Assembly (NCBI GenBank): GCA_025963465.1
Contig: JAOQAP010000229.1
Coordinates: 1-59,576 of the forward strand
DNA length: 59,576 nucleotides
Direction of reading: 5' to 3'
Origin: Flavipsychrobacter sp.
GTDB lineage: Bacteria; Bacteroidota; Bacteroidia; Chitinophagales; Chitinophagaceae
Shown here: positions 45,097 through 50,707 of the stretch, one piece after another
Numbering within the stretch: the stretch's first letter is position 1
Layout: every line of letters begins with the position of its first letter
The notes under the pieces: model-generated
What the model was told of the DNA's origin: nothing
What the model saw: the letters and a program-made list of their open reading frames with translations, nothing else
Database searches by the model: none
Made by a program: the position numbers and the translations under genes

Positions 45097-45534
45097 ATGA
45101 TTCAACGTAAACAATCTCTTTGGCTATTACTGGTAGCATTGCTGAATGCAGGTGTATTCTATTTTGATGTGTACCATTATCATAATATCGTGAATGGCCT
45201 GGACACAACAGGTGTGTTGCGGGTAGGCGACCATTATCCTTCGCTGATAATAGCGGTGGTCATTACTTTATTGCCGCTTGTAACTATATTCATGTTCCGC
45301 AACAGGAAACAGCAGATGCGTATGATAGCATATAACCTGGTTGCAGAATCTACATTTGTGGCTATGCTGCTTACGAGAGTAACAAGGCTGGAAAAGCTGA
45401 CGCCGCCACCTACAAGCGGCACCTACTGGATAGGCGCTATACTGCCTATAGTTGCCATCATATTCCTGATCATGGCCATGATAGGTGTGCGTAAGGATGA
45501 TAAGCTGGTGAAGTCGGTGGATAGGCTGAGGTAG
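45097..45534 (+). CDS. DUF4293 family membrane protein
   Basis: 145 residues. The start MIQRKQSLWLLLVALL is the hallmark of the DUF4293 family, restricted to Bacteroidota. Four hydrophobic segments (about 7-24, 47-66, 78-94, 111-131) indicate an inner-membrane protein with four helices. The function is unknown. It is bracketed by two diverged copies of an intergenic repeat (44935-45049 and 45630-45717) and followed by a strong terminator. Confidence 0.88.
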   Translation: MIQRKQSLWLLLVALLNAGVFYFDVYHYHNIVNGLDTTGVLRVGDHYPSLIIAVVITLLPLVTIFMFRNRKQQMRMIAYNLVAESTFVAMLLTRVTRLEKLTPPPTSGTYWIGAILPIVAIIFLIMAMIGVRKDDKLVKSVDRLR

Positions 45535-45547
45535 GTTAATTGGTTAA
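45534..45547. repeat. 14-mer GGTTAATTGGTTAA, copy 1
   Basis: Identical copies are found at 47658-47671 and 48554-48567, all just downstream of stop codons. A near-copy follows at 45551-45565. Confidence 0.7.
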
Positions 45548-45585
45548 AAAGTTGATTGGTTAAAAGGGCTGGGATATAAAACAGG

Positions 45586-45612
45586 AAAGCCACTACCGAT
45601 GTAGTGGCTTTT
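45586..45612 (+). terminator. Terminator of the DUF4293 gene
   Basis: Perfect 11-bp stem (AAAGCCACTAC / GTAGTGGCTTT) with loop CGAT, then TATTAT. Symmetric enough to work in both directions. Confidence 0.88.
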
Positions 45613-45784: not shown

Positions 45785-46609
45785 TTATTTGTCTTTTGAG
45801 AAGGAGCGTTTCATTTCCATGACGTCCATTTCCAGGTCGGCGAGGCGGTGGTATACTTCGGCTGGCTCGCTGAAGTCGCTGCTTATTTTCATGCGGCCAT
45901 ACCATACTTCTTTTATGTCTTCAGGGTCTATCTCCAGTGTAGGGAACTCGTGGCGGTGTGCTATGGTATCTGACTTCAGGTATATCTTGCCGCGTTCTTT
46001 CAGGCGGTTCACTACCCTTTTTACGGCTACGCCGCCGGTATGTACTACTACATATACCCTGTTGTCGCGTATCTTATCCAGCTGGTCTATCCACTCGCCT
46101 ATTATGCGGTCGCCATGCAGCACATTCGGCGCCATTGAGGGGCCGTCCACTTCAAACATACGGTAAGTGGCATTGTTCAGTCCCGGCAGACGAAAGGTGG
46201 GCAGGGTTTCCATGAACTCCACATCGCCGTAACCTGAGAGATAACCAGCTCTTGCTTTTACCGGCACATATACAATATTGTCGTTACCGCTATTGTCTAC
46301 CGTTATGATGCGGGGTATATTACTATATCCGCCGGGTATGGGTATTGCTGAAGATTTAGGGAACGCCGCCTGCAACATCACGTCTTTTTCGGTCGACTTC
46401 AGGATATCTTCTATGTTTTTTGACAACATATCGTCCAGGGAAACTCCAAAAAATTTGGAAAATATGATCAAAGTGTCAAGGTTTGGCTCACTGATGCCTG
46501 CCTCGTAGTTGGCTATTGTGGTACGTCCTATATTCACCGCAGAGCTAAGCGCATCCTGCGTTTTGCCGGATTTCTTTCTTAAGAATTTAAGATTTGTTGC
46601 TAAGTACAT
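45785..46609 (-). CDS. LexA/CI-type self-cleaving repressor (XRE helix-turn-helix plus S24 peptidase)
   Basis: 274 residues. An XRE/lambda-type helix-turn-helix spans about 5-60 (KTQDALSSAVNIGRTTIANYE). The C-terminal S24 domain has a Ser-Lys dyad: Ser158 in VDGPSMAP and Lys197 in VAVKRV, 39 residues apart (37 in LexA). An Ala-Gly cleavage site (Ala121-Gly122 in KARAGYL) lies 36 residues before the Ser, close to the 34 in LexA. Such proteins self-cleave on RecA activation and de-repress a phage or SOS-linked genes. It is divergent from the MuB-like gene, with overlapping control regions. The -7 box ends four bases before the ATG, implying a leaderless mRNA. Confidence 0.92.
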   Translation of the reverse strand: MYLATNLKFLRKKSGKTQDALSSAVNIGRTTIANYEAGISEPNLDTLIIFSKFFGVSLDDMLSKNIEDILKSTEKDVMLQAAFPKSSAIPIPGGYSNIPRIITVDNSGNDNIVYVPVKARAGYLSGYGDVEFMETLPTFRLPGLNNATYRMFEVDGPSMAPNVLHGDRIIGEWIDQLDKIRDNRVYVVVHTGGVAVKRVVNRLKERGKIYLKSDTIAHRHEFPTLEIDPEDIKEVWYGRMKISSDFSEPAEVYHRLADLEMDVMEMKRSFSKDK

Positions 46610-46613
46610 GATG

Positions 46614-46673
46614 CAAATGTAAGATTATTTTTCCACAAAATTTGGATTTGTCAAAATAATTGGAATATCTTTG
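46614..46673. promoter_or_regulatory. Divergent promoters and likely operator of the repressor
   Basis: Leftward -7 box TACATTTG (complement of 46614-46621). Rightward -33 TTTG (46641-46644) and -7 TATCTTTG (46666-46673), 21-base gap. Between them lie the dyad ACAAA/TTTGT (46635-46639, 46647-46651) and direct repeats CAAAATTTGGA (46636-46646) and CAAAATAATTGGA (46652-46664). A repressor bound here would cover both promoters, the lambda-like layout of a self-regulating switch. Confidence 0.6.
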
Positions 46674-46770
46674 TGTCGTAATTGATGCTACAGGCAATCA
46701 AAAATACAGAATAAAAGTATCTGTGCCAATAAAATTGTCTAAGCAAAGGATTACGGAAAAGTGCTAACCC

Positions 46771-46809
46771 ATGACACTAATCTGTAACCACGAAAACTTA
46801 AGCATATGA
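46771..46809 (+). CDS. Possible 12-residue leader peptide overlapping the MuB-like start
   Basis: A short open frame (ATGACACTAATC..., encoding MTLICNHENLSI) ends in a TGA that overlaps the ATG of the next gene (ATGA). This layout allows translational coupling. Short frames arise by chance, so support is weak. Confidence 0.25.
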   Translation: MTLICNHENLSI

Positions 46810-47654
46810 CAAACGAACAAAAAGGACAAGTAAGAGACGCATTAGTGCGGTATGTAAACAATTTTCCTACGCAGGGCATGGCGGCGGAAAGTTTGCACGG
46901 GATTAGCTCATCAACGATCTCACAGGTAAAGAACCATAACTGGGAACAGCTGAGCGACAGGCTATGGCACCACGTAGCCCGCCAGGTGGGTTTTTACTGC
47001 GGCGAATGGCAGGCTGCGGATACGAGTGTATACCTGCTGCTGCGCATATTGCTGAGCGACGCACAGCACTACGCTATGACCTATGGTATAGCTATAGGTG
47101 AGGGCCTGGGCAAAACATTTACCGCAGGCCGCTATATGAGAGAAAATGAATCTGTATACTATATAGCCTGCAACGAACAGTATAACCGCAAATCGTTCAT
47201 GGCTACGCTGATGACCAATGCCGGAGTTGAAGCAAAGGGCACCGTACCACAGATGATGATGCATTATGCGATGCACATCGCAGAGCAACCCGCTCCCGTG
47301 CTGATAATAGATGACGCACATAAGCTAAAGGACAGGGTGCTGCACCTGGTGGTATTGCTGGCCAACAGCATGATGGCGAAAGCGGGTGTGGTGATCATGG
47401 GATCAGATAAGCTGCGGACGAAGATAGTGGAAGGCGTGCGGCTGAAGAAAGTGGGATTTGATGAGATATACCAGAGCATCGGCAGGCGCTTTATAACAGT
47501 GGAAAATATGGGGCCGAAAGATCTGGACCTGGTATGCAGGGCAAACGGCGTGTGCGAGGAAGGGCTGATAAAAGAAATAGCAGAGCAATGCGATAACCTG
47601 CACACGGCATCGCAACTGATACAACGGCAAACACATTATAGCCATGCGGCTTAG
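46806..47654 (+). CDS. MuB-like AAA ATPase (transposition-target/ExeA-type)
   Basis: 282 residues. The N-terminal 60 residues look like the small helix-turn-helix DNA-binding domain of phage Mu B (GMAAESLHGISSSTISQVKN). The AAA core has Walker A GEGLGKT (98-104) and Walker B VLIIDDAH (165-172), then a sensor-type segment GVVIMGSDKL. In Mu-like elements MuB binds target DNA, activates the transposase MuA and gives target immunity. No MuA-like transposase (DDE) gene is present in this window, so the function here is open. The promoter diverges from the repressor gene. Confidence 0.85.
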   Translation: MTNEQKGQVRDALVRYVNNFPTQGMAAESLHGISSSTISQVKNHNWEQLSDRLWHHVARQVGFYCGEWQAADTSVYLLLRILLSDAQHYAMTYGIAIGEGLGKTFTAGRYMRENESVYYIACNEQYNRKSFMATLMTNAGVEAKGTVPQMMMHYAMHIAEQPAPVLIIDDAHKLKDRVLHLVVLLANSMMAKAGVVIMGSDKLRTKIVEGVRLKKVGFDEIYQSIGRRFITVENMGPKDLDLVCRANGVCEEGLIKEIAEQCDNLHTASQLIQRQTHYSHAA

Positions 47655-47657
47655 TTT

Positions 47658-47671
47658 GGTTAATTGGTTAA
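47658..47671. repeat. 14-mer GGTTAATTGGTTAA, copy 2
   Basis: Identical to 45534-45547 and 48554-48567; four bases after the stop of the MuB-like gene. Confidence 0.7.
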
Positions 47672-47675
47672 TCCT

Positions 47676-47727
47676 CCTTCGCTGCTTATCATGTTCTTGT
47701 ATAAGCAGCTACGGCGGACGAAGAAGG
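47676..47727. repeat. Imperfect inverted repeat between the MuB-like and DnaA-IV genes
   Basis: Inner arms GCTGCTTAT (47681-47689) and ATAAGCAGC (47701-47709), and outer arms CCTTC / GAAGG. It could be a hairpin in the transcript or an intergenic repeat. Confidence 0.6.
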
Positions 47728-47807
47728 TTAATAGGGTAATAGGTTGATGAGATCAATAAATGGCTGCTTCCGAAGAATAATTAAATAACGACTTTAAGAA
47801 TAAACAT

Positions 47808-48266
47808 ATGAATAACATACCGCAATTTCAGAGCGCTGCAAGGCATATAGCAAGGTCTGCGCAGCAGAAGATCAAAAACAAGACAGGTATGCAGGTGACA
47901 CTGCTGCTATACCCTGATGCAGACCTGCTGCGAACACCCAAGCATATGCTGCACGTAATAGCGCTGTCGCTGGGCATGGAGGCAGAATGCTTTAAAATGA
48001 AGACACGCAAACGGGATATCGTTGAGCTGCGGTTCATAGCCTCGCTGTTCCTGCGTAACAATTTCCCAAGGATAACGCTGTACCAGATAGCGGCGCTCTT
48101 TGGTGGGTTGGACCATTCGTCTGTGCTGAGCGGGATGGCGAGGGCGTATGACCTGATACAGGCCGGAGACCCACGCTTTGTAGAAAAATACAATACTGTA
48201 CTAAAATCTGTAAATCTATGGCTAAGAAAAGAGGAATCAGGCTACGCATCAGCCAACAGCGCGTAG
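47808..48266 (+). CDS. Stand-alone DnaA domain IV-like DNA-binding protein
   Basis: 152 residues. The C-terminal half matches the origin-binding domain IV of DnaA: RKRDIVELRFIASLFLR (about 67-83) and the signature FGGLDHSSVLSGM (98-110; the DnaA form is FGGxDHTTV). There is no AAA ATPase domain, so it cannot be an initiator alone, but it could bind DnaA-box-like DNA. The N-terminal 60 residues are unrecognised. It may compete with host DnaA or recruit replication or transcription to an element; both are inferences. It overlaps the next gene by 49 bases. Confidence 0.8.
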   Translation: MNNIPQFQSAARHIARSAQQKIKNKTGMQVTLLLYPDADLLRTPKHMLHVIALSLGMEAECFKMKTRKRDIVELRFIASLFLRNNFPRITLYQIAALFGGLDHSSVLSGMARAYDLIQAGDPRFVEKYNTVLKSVNLWLRKEESGYASANSA

Positions 48267-48535
48267 AGGCGCTCAAAGAAATATGCGACGAAATGCTGGA
48301 GGAATTTGCCCCGGCAAACGAGCACCAGCACCTGCTGAAAGAATACCTGGTAGAGCTGCGCCACAAACTGGAAGAAATGCTGAAGCGCAACCAGAACCTG
48401 TATACCCTTTCTCACTCAGGTGCAGAATCAATAGCGTTTTACCAGCTATGGCATATGCTGGACATAAGTGCGGACAAATACGCTACACTGATAGTGGACA
48501 ACCTGCTGAAAAAAATGGGGAACATGGCCGCATGA
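48218..48535 (+). CDS. Small helical protein of unknown function
   Basis: 105 residues, almost all helical, with a basic start (MAKKRGIRLRISQQRV) and a charged coiled-coil-like stretch around HLLKEYLVELRHKLEEMLKR. No family recognised. It begins 49 bases inside the DnaA-IV gene in another frame, which implies translational coupling and makes a shared function likely. Confidence 0.65.
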   Translation: MAKKRGIRLRISQQRVEALKEICDEMLEEFAPANEHQHLLKEYLVELRHKLEEMLKRNQNLYTLSHSGAESIAFYQLWHMLDISADKYATLIVDNLLKKMGNMAA

Positions 48536-48553
48536 CAGGTCAATTAGTTAAAG

Positions 48554-48567
48554 GGTTAATTGGTTAA
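48554..48567. repeat. 14-mer GGTTAATTGGTTAA, copy 3
   Basis: Identical to 45534-45547 and 47658-47671; 18 bases after the previous stop. Confidence 0.7.
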
Positions 48568-48732
48568 AGGGGCATGCGGCAGTTTAATTGTTGCTGATAC
48601 CCAACTGAATGGCCCGGCGCCGTTGTCATTATTATGATAGTTTTTTCTTTGGCATGAAAATTATTATACTAGTAATGAGCGCACATAAGCACCATGAAAA
48701 AAACTACTGAGAACGAATAAAGAAGCAAGACA

Positions 48733-48963
48733 ATGAAAAGACAAGCATCACACAACGGTTTATCTTCCTTAGAAAGATTTGTAACATCAGGAAGAGGAAT
48801 GCAGCATAGCTCATCTGCTACTACAGACCATGGAGACGCAACAAGGCGCCAGAAAAAACATGATATGCTGGTTACATTTATGGCCAACGCGCATACACCA
48901 AAACGGAGGCCCGCCCCTGTAAGACCTAAATTACTGACCACATTACTGTCTATCTTCTTTTAA
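48733..48963 (+). CDS. Small basic protein of unknown function (tentative)
   Basis: 76 residues, rich in Arg, Lys, His and Ser, with a hydrophobic end (LLTTLLSIFF). No family seen. The case for a gene is its ATG spacing and position within a same-strand run of small genes; a 72-residue-plus frame can arise by chance, so it is tentative. Confidence 0.4.
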   Translation: MKRQASHNGLSSLERFVTSGRGMQHSSSATTDHGDATRRQKKHDMLVTFMANAHTPKRRPAPVRPKLLTTLLSIFF

Positions 48964-49052
48964 AAGGAGACAGATGACAATTCCGATGGGGTTGGTATGA
49001 TTTTTTATTACATGAAAACAAGATTACTCACTATTTCTATAAAGCATTGACC

Positions 49053-49343
49053 ATGAACAGAACGGCATACATAGCAGGAAAAATAACCGGCCTGCCCAAA
49101 GGACACGTACAGAACAAATTTAATGTAGTGAGCAACCAGCTTTCAGGCATGGGCTACGAGGTGATAACGCCAGACGCAGTGACGGATGACTCGAAAGGAT
49201 GGGACGCCAGTGTGCGTAACGATATAAAGAAGATGCTGGAGTGCGACGAAGTACACCTGTTACCAGACTGGCAGGACAGCAAGGGTGCACAACTGGAGCG
49301 TGACATAGCATTGCGCCTGGGCATGCAGGTGGTATATCATTAA
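49053..49343 (+). CDS. DUF4406 / nucleoside 2-deoxyribosyltransferase-like protein
   Basis: 96 residues. YIAGKITGLP at the N-terminus, then NDIKKMLECDEVHLLPDW and SKGAQLERDIALRLGM match DUF4406, a small Rossmann-like family common in phages and related to nucleoside deoxyribosyltransferases. Start chosen at ATG 49053; an upstream in-frame TTG at 49047 is less likely. It is the last gene of the accessory island and is followed by a strong terminator. Confidence 0.85.
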   Translation: MNRTAYIAGKITGLPKGHVQNKFNVVSNQLSGMGYEVITPDAVTDDSKGWDASVRNDIKKMLECDEVHLLPDWQDSKGAQLERDIALRLGMQVVYH

Positions 49344-49367: not shown

Positions 49368-49397
49368 AAGGCGATGTGCAATTTGTGCATCGCTTTT
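49368..49397. terminator. Terminator at the island / photolyase boundary
   Basis: Stem GCGATG / CATCGC extended by G-U pairs and flanked by AAG / TTTT, with a T-rich tail rightward and an A/T-rich tail leftward. It can end both the DUF4406 gene and the convergent photolyase gene. Confidence 0.8.
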
Positions 49398-49402
49398 CTT
49401 TG

Positions 49403-50707
49403 TTATTTATTCAACCCCGTCTTATATGCCTTCAGGCACCGTTCGCGAGCCATGCTGTGATCTACAATAGGCTGAACGTAAGTAAGCTCGTCATATTCCG
49501 GTACCCAGTGGCGTATGTATTTTAGTTCCGGGTCAAATTTTTGCGTTTGCAGGTATGGATTGAAGACCCGGAAGTAGGGCGCGGCATCACAACCGGAGCC
49601 CGCTGCCCATTGCCAGCCGCCATTATTGGCAGCGAGATCATAGTCCAGCAGCTTTTCTGCAAAGTATGCCTCGCCCCAGCGCCAGTCTATCAGCAGGTCT
49701 TTGGTGAGAAAGCTGGCCACGATCATGCGTACCCGGTTGTGCATAAAGCCGGTCTCGTTCAGTTCGCGCATACCTGCATCTATTATGGGGTAGCCCGTTT
49801 GCCCGGCACACCACAGCTCAAATTCTTGCTCATTGTTGCGCCAGGGTATGTTGTCGTATTCTTTTTTAAATGCGCCATTCACCACATGTGGAAAGTTGGA
49901 TAGTATCGCCTGGTAGAAATCGCGCCATATAAGCTCGTTGAGCAGGGTTGCATTCAGTTCAGTGGCCTGTGTGGCAAGGTGGCGAATGCTTACTGTGCCA
50001 AAACGCAGGTGCACACTAAGCCTGGTTGTGCCGTGCATTGCAGGGAAGTCGCGTGTTTCATCGTAACGTTTCGCAATTTCTTCGTTTAGCTTTGCTGGGA
50101 CTATACCTGGCGGTGCTTCTTTAAAGCCTAGTGCGGCCAATGACGGAATACGTTCAGGTGCTTGCTTATAGAAATTGTGATAGTATTTTTTTGTTGGATA
50201 TGGTTTCAGATAGAAGCCATTGAGCCGCTCCTTCCACTTTCTGCTGTAGGGTGTGAATACAGTATAGGGTTCGCCATTGTCCTTTACCACTTCCTTTTGT
50301 TCAAAGATCACCTGGTCTTTAAAAGAGTAGAAGGGGATATCTTTCTTCTTCAGAAATTGTTCTATGTCCTCATCACGTTTTATGGCCGATGGTTCATAGT
50401 CACGATTGGTATATACGGCGGTAATATTGTATTCCTCCGTGAGTTGTTTAAAGCTTTCGTTCGGTGTGCTGTGCAATACATGGAGGGTGCTGCCCATCTT
50501 TACCAACTTACCCTGCATATCACTTATCGCATTATGTATGAAGTGAACGCGTTTGTCTTTCTTATTTTCCAGCAGATCCAGTATCTCCGTGTCGAATATA
50601 AAGACAGGCAAAACGGGTATTCCGGTTTTTAACGCATGGTACAACCCCGCATTATCATCGAGCCTGAGATCGCGGCGAAACCAGAATATGGTAATGGGTT
50701 GGCGCAT
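49403..50707 (-). CDS. phrB: Deoxyribodipyrimidine photolyase (class I)
   Basis: 434 residues. Repairs UV-induced cyclobutane pyrimidine dimers using light. The N-terminal antenna domain begins ITIFWFRRDLRLDDN, and the FAD-binding C-terminal domain has WRWGEAYF, DYDLAANNGGWQWAAGSGCDAAPYFR and FNPYLQTQKFDP, all characteristic. Length is slightly short of the E. coli enzyme (472). A variant -7 box TAGCTTTA (complement of 50711-50718) ends three bases before the ATG, so a leaderless mRNA is likely. Confidence 0.95.
   Translation of the reverse strand: MRQPITIFWFRRDLRLDDNAGLYHALKTGIPVLPVFIFDTEILDLLENKKDKRVHFIHNAISDMQGKLVKMGSTLHVLHSTPNESFKQLTEEYNITAVYTNRDYEPSAIKRDEDIEQFLKKKDIPFYSFKDQVIFEQKEVVKDNGEPYTVFTPYSRKWKERLNGFYLKPYPTKKYYHNFYKQAPERIPSLAALGFKEAPPGIVPAKLNEEIAKRYDETRDFPAMHGTTRLSVHLRFGTVSIRHLATQATELNATLLNELIWRDFYQAILSNFPHVVNGAFKKEYDNIPWRNNEQEFELWCAGQTGYPIIDAGMRELNETGFMHNRVRMIVASFLTKDLLIDWRWGEAYFAEKLLDYDLAANNGGWQWAAGSGCDAAPYFRVFNPYLQTQKFDPELKYIRHWVPEYDELTYVQPIVDHSMARERCLKAYKTGLNK

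Follow-up and report, generated by a model that had tools for sequence, protein, structure and literature searches.

A transposase-free Mu-like early region in Chitinophagaceae, probably kept as a DNA-damage switch of the host

Why would a bacterial chromosome keep a phage-type repressor next to a MuB-like ATPase and a free DnaA domain IV, with no transposase beside them? The question is raised by an island in a 59,576-nucleotide stretch of Flavipsychrobacter sp. (GenBank JAOQAP010000229.1), referred to here as the window; it spans contig C126 from end to end, and the host assembly, 4.18 Mb in 277 contigs, is 97.5% complete. The island comprises an S24-type repressor (REP) divergent from a MuB-like ATPase (MuB), followed by a stand-alone DnaA domain IV protein (DNA4), the small proteins HEL and BAS, and a DUF4406 protein (Table 1). 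All these genes had been named in an earlier sequence-only reading, and Pfam, PHROGs and conservation confirm them; our analysis adds the operators between REP and MuB, Gam, which the unit includes in other genomes, and a probable target located beyond the island. We propose that a Mu-like prophage probably left its immunity and early region here, fixed in an ancestor of several genera after loss of MuA and kept as a host switch for DNA damage. Which genes the island holds, how well they are conserved, where they come from and which operators are shared are read from sequence comparison.

The residues Ala121-Gly122, Ser158 and Lys197 of REP are conserved, and their columns are invariant in 12/12 aligned S24 proteins; by motif, we take Ser158 and Lys197 to be the catalytic dyad. 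Together with the operator sites and the published relatives described below, these residues argue strongly for REP being a damage-triggered repressor. The MuB-like protein also matches the structure of Mu MuB, weakly (PDB 8xvb, 2.3e-4). HEL, whose open reading frame overlaps DNA4 by 49 bases, and BAS have no Pfam family above cut-off; they are considered real genes because they are conserved in other genomes.

The unit was collected at 53 loci, one per genome, from 8 genera, and annotated together with prophage and control loci by BLAST and by hidden Markov models built here; at seven loci a contig end truncates the unit, and retention counts cover testable loci only. The gene order is REP, facing away from MuB, DNA4, HEL, Gam, BAS and DUF4406. 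Retention is highest for REP (52/52) and DNA4 (51/52), followed by MuB (46/53), BAS (44/48), HEL (41/50), Gam (40/50, two of them partial with 55 and 113 aa) and DUF4406 (26/46). MuB is missing from seven genomes, in six of which (G001, G008, G023, G076, G123 and G165) DNA4 is the first operon gene after REP; the seventh is G138. The window has neither Gam nor any significant trace of it; the gene is clearly recognized in G028 (PF07352, 3.7e-23) and is reduced to a short remnant in G024. The sequence-only reading had asked whether relatives carry the island as a unit, and they do, with the MuB-like and DnaA domain IV genes co-occurring outside MuA-bearing prophages.

Within the host's genus, 32 of 35 genomes encode a REP that is at least 76% identical. 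Three genomes are exceptions: in G034 a contig end truncates the island, so that only a remote paralogue is seen, while G002 and G014 are 57% and 82% complete. MuB of the island type is present in 30 of the 35, and in 23 of the 25 good genomes. In a family sample of 344 genomes from 101 genera, REP at 65% identity or more occurs in 8 genera, and MuB at 41% identity or more occurs in the same eight. Families and genera are counted as labelled by the tool used.

No MuA gene was found in the window, in agreement with the sequence-only reading, nor in the host assembly with two queries (PHROG 310 and a MuA protein), nor beside the unit at any of the 53 loci, seven of which are truncated as stated above. 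The Pfam family Mu-transpos_C (PF09299) was tried as a detector and rejected: it failed to detect MuA in G022 and matched in no control genome, which is why PHROG 310 and the MuA protein were used instead. PHROG 310 matches 17 of the 35 genus genomes, and MuA was called only for the best five (E at most 3.7e-24, the next being 6.9e-16), which are the island-bearing G005, G012, G018, G022 and G029; the remaining matches are probably other DDE transposases.

The genes that remain are constrained. Over 12 close pairs, the ratio of nonsynonymous to synonymous substitution rates (dN/dS) is 0.00-0.20 for all computed values bar one, with three values undefined; the exception is BAS in one pair, at 0.47 (dS 0.04). 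With its retained genes under purifying selection, the island is not decaying debris. The earlier suggestion of a decayed Mu-like prophage thus holds for the origin and fails for the decay, while the companion suggestion of a domesticated control switch is well supported.

The origin is documented by a REP tree of 72 rows, including 27 of the 52 island REPs (L063, L117 and L119 were dropped for having no REP or a short one). The island REPs form one clade (support 100/98), whose sister is the repressor of a MuA-bearing region in G012, L073 (98/83). Twenty-two ordinary regulators, including the family's ordinary non-canonical LexA, are separate from the prophage-repressor group; REP lies in a clade apart from this LexA, with which it shares 30-39% identity, and is not its orthologue. 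A prophage of the same genus, L071 in G022, carries a REP-type repressor and MuA, MuB, p157, DNA4 and HEL in a row. In a phage collection, relatives of MuB reach about 33% identity, REP gives partial matches only, and DNA4 has no match.

What REP would control is indicated by its operators. Between REP and MuB, two YCAA-N5-TTGG-type sites lie 18 bp apart, and such a pair, with at most one mismatch per site, is present in 50 of 52 island loci (absent in G113 and G138). The L073 prophage region shows the same arrangement at its own promoter, with two such sites spaced by 18 bp. Within REP itself, 25 of 52 loci carry a strict operator site. Outside the island, an operator of this type precedes a host gene for a Y-family DNA polymerase (IMS, 4.5e-37). 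Orthologues of this polymerase at 67% identity or more are present in 27 of the 35 genus genomes, and the operator precedes the gene in 26 of the 27 (shuffles give 0.91; the 27th lacks upstream sequence), with a pattern that was set after inspecting the upstream regions and with the host's own, earlier-found site counted among the 26.

In these genera, the usual repressor of the damage response was not found. Using L285 as query, we searched 54 genomes of the 8 genera, namely the 53 with the unit and G014, where no island was found (G002 was left out). The ordinary non-canonical LexA has an orthologue in 0 of these 54, where matches are REP or remote S24 proteins, and in 23 of 26 non-island genomes (53-86% identity), a comparison set that is a choice, mostly one per genus. 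In the ordinary LexA clade, CTAA-N5-TTAG occurs in 8 of 11 promoters, as published.

The mechanism proposed here is modeled on known S24 repressors. A captured Mu-type repressor would have taken over control of a translesion polymerase while retaining part of the phage operon, and REP would act as repressor of its own gene, of the polymerase and of the former phage operon. Where DNA is damaged, RecA filaments would induce self-cleavage of REP at Ala121-Gly122, whereupon polymerase and operon would be made together. What the operon then does is more tentative: DNA4 may occupy DnaA boxes, delaying or re-tuning DnaA for as long as the damage persists; MuB, HEL and Gam may assist on DNA and at its ends, and some lineages appear to have dropped them. 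The most complete version, to our mind possible rather than probable, has a repressor from a Mu-like prophage take the place of the ancestral non-canonical LexA and bring along an operon in which the best-retained product, a free DnaA domain IV, is a damage-induced brake on DnaA. If true, a checkpoint on replication, supplied by a phage, would be part of the damage response.

Action at DnaA boxes is a guess that we prefer for DNA4 because it is the operon gene lost least, and the use of host DnaA sites suggested by the sequence-only reading remains a plausible inference. DNA4 has the Asp-His signature and an arginine aligned to the DNA-contacting arginine of E. coli DnaA, all of them invariant in 12/12 sequences. 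Searched against the PDB, the DNA4 profile matches DnaA domain IV (8btg, 7.7e-9) and E. coli domain IV with a DnaA box (1j1v, 2.3e-6). The AlphaFold model of HEL has moderate confidence (pLDDT 69), with no fold match at E < 0.001 and no credible PDB sequence match. REP-DNA4 pairs without MuA also exist elsewhere, at L262, L263 and L265 (genus g16) and, with Gam, at L267, L270 and L276 (genus g72). They belong to separate REP clades and are apparently independent retentions, so the pairing survived MuA loss more than once. The unit points to a stand-alone DnaA domain IV protein as a recurrent partner of such repressors. Ordinary LexA is kept in 5/5 tested genomes of g16 and g72. A DnaA-box-like 9-mer, TTTTCCACA (46631-46639), overlaps operator O1 where O1 breaks palindromic symmetry, and 30 of the 44 intergenic regions that were aligned have a TTWTNCACA match; this could possibly reflect DnaA/DNA4 feedback or be a chance product of the operator.

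Several observations weigh against a damage switch centered on REP and DNA4. The most divergent island-class REP, in G138 (L274), has neither operon genes nor the operator pair within 3.4 kb beyond REP; it is therefore wrong to say that DNA4 never drops out, and the odds of a DnaA brake are lowered a little. In the tree, the wider clade of Mu-like prophage repressors reaches 93/99, below the starred level, the prophage repressors L069 and L070 fall outside it, and several rows are long-branched. Absence of ordinary LexA extends to the non-island genomes G035, G045 and G054. The loose operator pattern is not enriched in the host genome, with 10 matches against 8 for the reversed control; five of the 10 are in the island and another is directly upstream of the polymerase. 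On the supporting side, a stricter pattern applied to nine genomes gives 47 matches, where the reversed control gives 17. Of the 47, 17 fall within REP or ahead of it and 10 ahead of the polymerase, so the remaining 20 are about background. Only two recurrent targets were seen, the unit and a single polymerase; neither recA nor any other SOS gene is among them, and to call REP an SOS master would be too strong. Other pattern matches, inspected at ten loci, were rejected as targets, being non-recurrent and either inside genes or before unrelated genes.

Some S24 repressors, moreover, control another locus in the genus. A further S24 regulator, about 30% identical, is present in 11 of the 35 genus genomes. 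At 4/4 loci inspected (L207, L289, L290 and L292), this second S24 regulator is divergent to a gene pair that we presume to be of the imuA-imuB kind, whose second gene matches IMS in 2/2 tested; in L207, the sole locus tested for this, a DnaE-type DNA polymerase III alpha gene follows. In this genus the damage response thus seems to be divided among several small units, a pattern also described for Francisella (PMC13148647).

Among the alternatives, the one closest to our proposal places the output in the protection or handling of broken DNA, with Gam on ends and MuB filaments, DNA4 merely targeting or regulating these. Gam is a recognized Mu end-protection family (PHROG 491); Gam and MuB show the retention given above, and both are under constraint. 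Yet Gam is absent in the window, and several lineages have lost Gam and MuB but still carry DNA4, which leaves this output doubtful but worth weighing. Immunity is an unlikely purpose: REP would silence incoming Mu-like phages with like operators and the operon proteins would disturb transposition, as the operator type and sister repressor of prophage L073 might suggest, but neither the polymerase operator nor the missing ordinary LexA would be explained, and the five island-bearing genomes named above also have strong MuA matches.

The sequence-only reading had also considered an unrecognized element, which as a mobile or satellite element we regard as very improbable. The unit does have more than one neighborhood within the genus, and G009 has a second, partial copy; against this, the copy number is usually one per genome, rather than many copies at unrelated sites, close-relative scans of viral contigs with REP and MuB found no relative, and a GNAT gene (PF14542) lies beside REP in 22 of 53 loci from three genera. 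In addition, pairwise distances of REP, MuB, DNA4, HEL and Gam in the genus correlate with those of the polymerase (r 0.44-0.58, with 0 of 2000 permutations as high), which fits vertical descent with some relocation, as a distance comparison and not a formal tree test. Hardly credible at all is a functionless prophage remnant, for which the loss of Gam in the window and an in-frame stop in the MuB of G016 could be cited, when dN/dS is far below 1, the operators are conserved and the unit is kept across eight genera.

Our preferred explanation, a captured Mu-like control region, has precedents. The capture of phage repressors as SOS repressors has already been proposed (PMC8565304, PMC13148647). 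Like the non-canonical LexA of Bacteroidetes (Sanchez-Osuna 2021, PMC8565304), for which a phage origin was proposed, REP combines HTH_3 and S24 domains with self-cleavage residues, a palindromic 4-5-4 operator in its own promoter and apparent control of an error-prone polymerase. Unlike it, REP groups with Mu-like prophage repressors and still has the phage early operon attached, and its operator is of the YCAA-N5-TTGG type, whereas that family uses CTAA-N5-TTAG or GGA-N5-TCC. The main text of PMC8565304 makes no mention of MuB, Mu-like or DnaA. FddR of Francisella (PMC13148647) is likewise a captured, self-regulated phage S24 repressor with a divergent target, and with dinB as target in some species, but it is related to lambdoid repressors, its divergent gene has unknown function, and a retained Mu early operon is not described in the parts of that paper covered. 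HdiR and UmuDAb, as presented in PMC8565304, share the small regulon centered on error-prone polymerases and differ in origin and host. Mu-like phage early regions of Bacteroidota, such as that of hankyphage (PV107404; PMC12135933), have a repressor and the MuB relatives at about 33% identity, together with the MuA that the island lacks; DNA4 and HEL are shared with prophage L071. Among the open-licence papers listed in our searches, none describes the unit by title or abstract opening, and none was found that joins MuB, Mu-like, DnaA and Bacteroidetes. Taken together, the island looks like a preserved intermediate in the viral supply of a damage-response switch to bacteria, and since captured repressor, operators, matching prophage, early operon, polymerase and absence of the ordinary LexA stand side by side in one group, the order of events is testable.

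Table 1. Features of the island, in window coordinates.
Feature	Position	Strand	Basis
Terminator-like hairpin	45585..45612	(+), found on both strands	hairpin scan
REP repressor, 274 aa	45785..46609	(-)	HTH_3 5.6e-14, Peptidase_S24 9.7e-8 (Pfam)
Operator-like palindrome within REP, TCCAAAAAATTTGGA	46445..46459	(.)	pattern match
Leftward -7-like element for REP, TACATTTG	46614..46621	(-)	read from sequence; alignment
Operator O1, TCCACAAAATTTGGA	46632..46646	(+)	pattern match, YCAA-N5-TTGG type
Operator O2, GTCAAAATAATTGGA, 18 bp from O1	46650..46664	(+)	pattern match, YCAA-N5-TTGG type
Rightward -7-like element for MuB operon, TATCTTTG	46666..46673	(+)	read from sequence; alignment
Operator-like site O3, GACAATTTTATTGGC	46725..46739	(-)	pattern match
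MuB-like AAA ATPase, N-terminal helix-turn-helix-like part	46806..47654	(+)	AAA_22 2e-14; PHROG 296 'DNA transposition protein' 2.9e-34
DNA4, stand-alone DnaA domain IV with N-terminal extension	47808..48266	(+)	Bac_DnaA_C 4.2e-9
HEL, small protein, also behind DNA4 in Mu-like prophages	48218..48535	(+)	conservation
BAS, small basic protein	48733..48963	(+)	conservation; directly preceded by Gam in most sister loci
DUF4406 protein	49053..49343	(+)	DUF4406 1.8e-22
Terminator-like hairpin	49368..49396	(+)	hairpin scan

For the DUF4406 gene, the ATG at 49053 is a better start than the TTG at 49047. The -7-like elements are assigned to the Bacteroidota type by the consensus TAnnTTTG. Terminators had been claimed at both ends of the island; both hairpins were found, though the scan returned six terminator-like hairpins against a shuffle mean of 4.1. 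In the window, the flanks are host genes, serS-DUF4293 on one side and, on the other, a DNA photolyase gene (49403-50707) convergent with the operon. Of the 53 loci, 14 have a photolyase gene close to the unit, downstream in 13 of these, and 11-12 have pst and phoU genes nearby. The second, partial copy in G009 (L068, contig C132) lies on a short contig and is either contamination (5%) or a true duplicate. Finally, related short intergenic repeats of the type GGTTAATTGGTTAA were seen by eye at about 45533-45572, 47653-47675 and 48537-48568.

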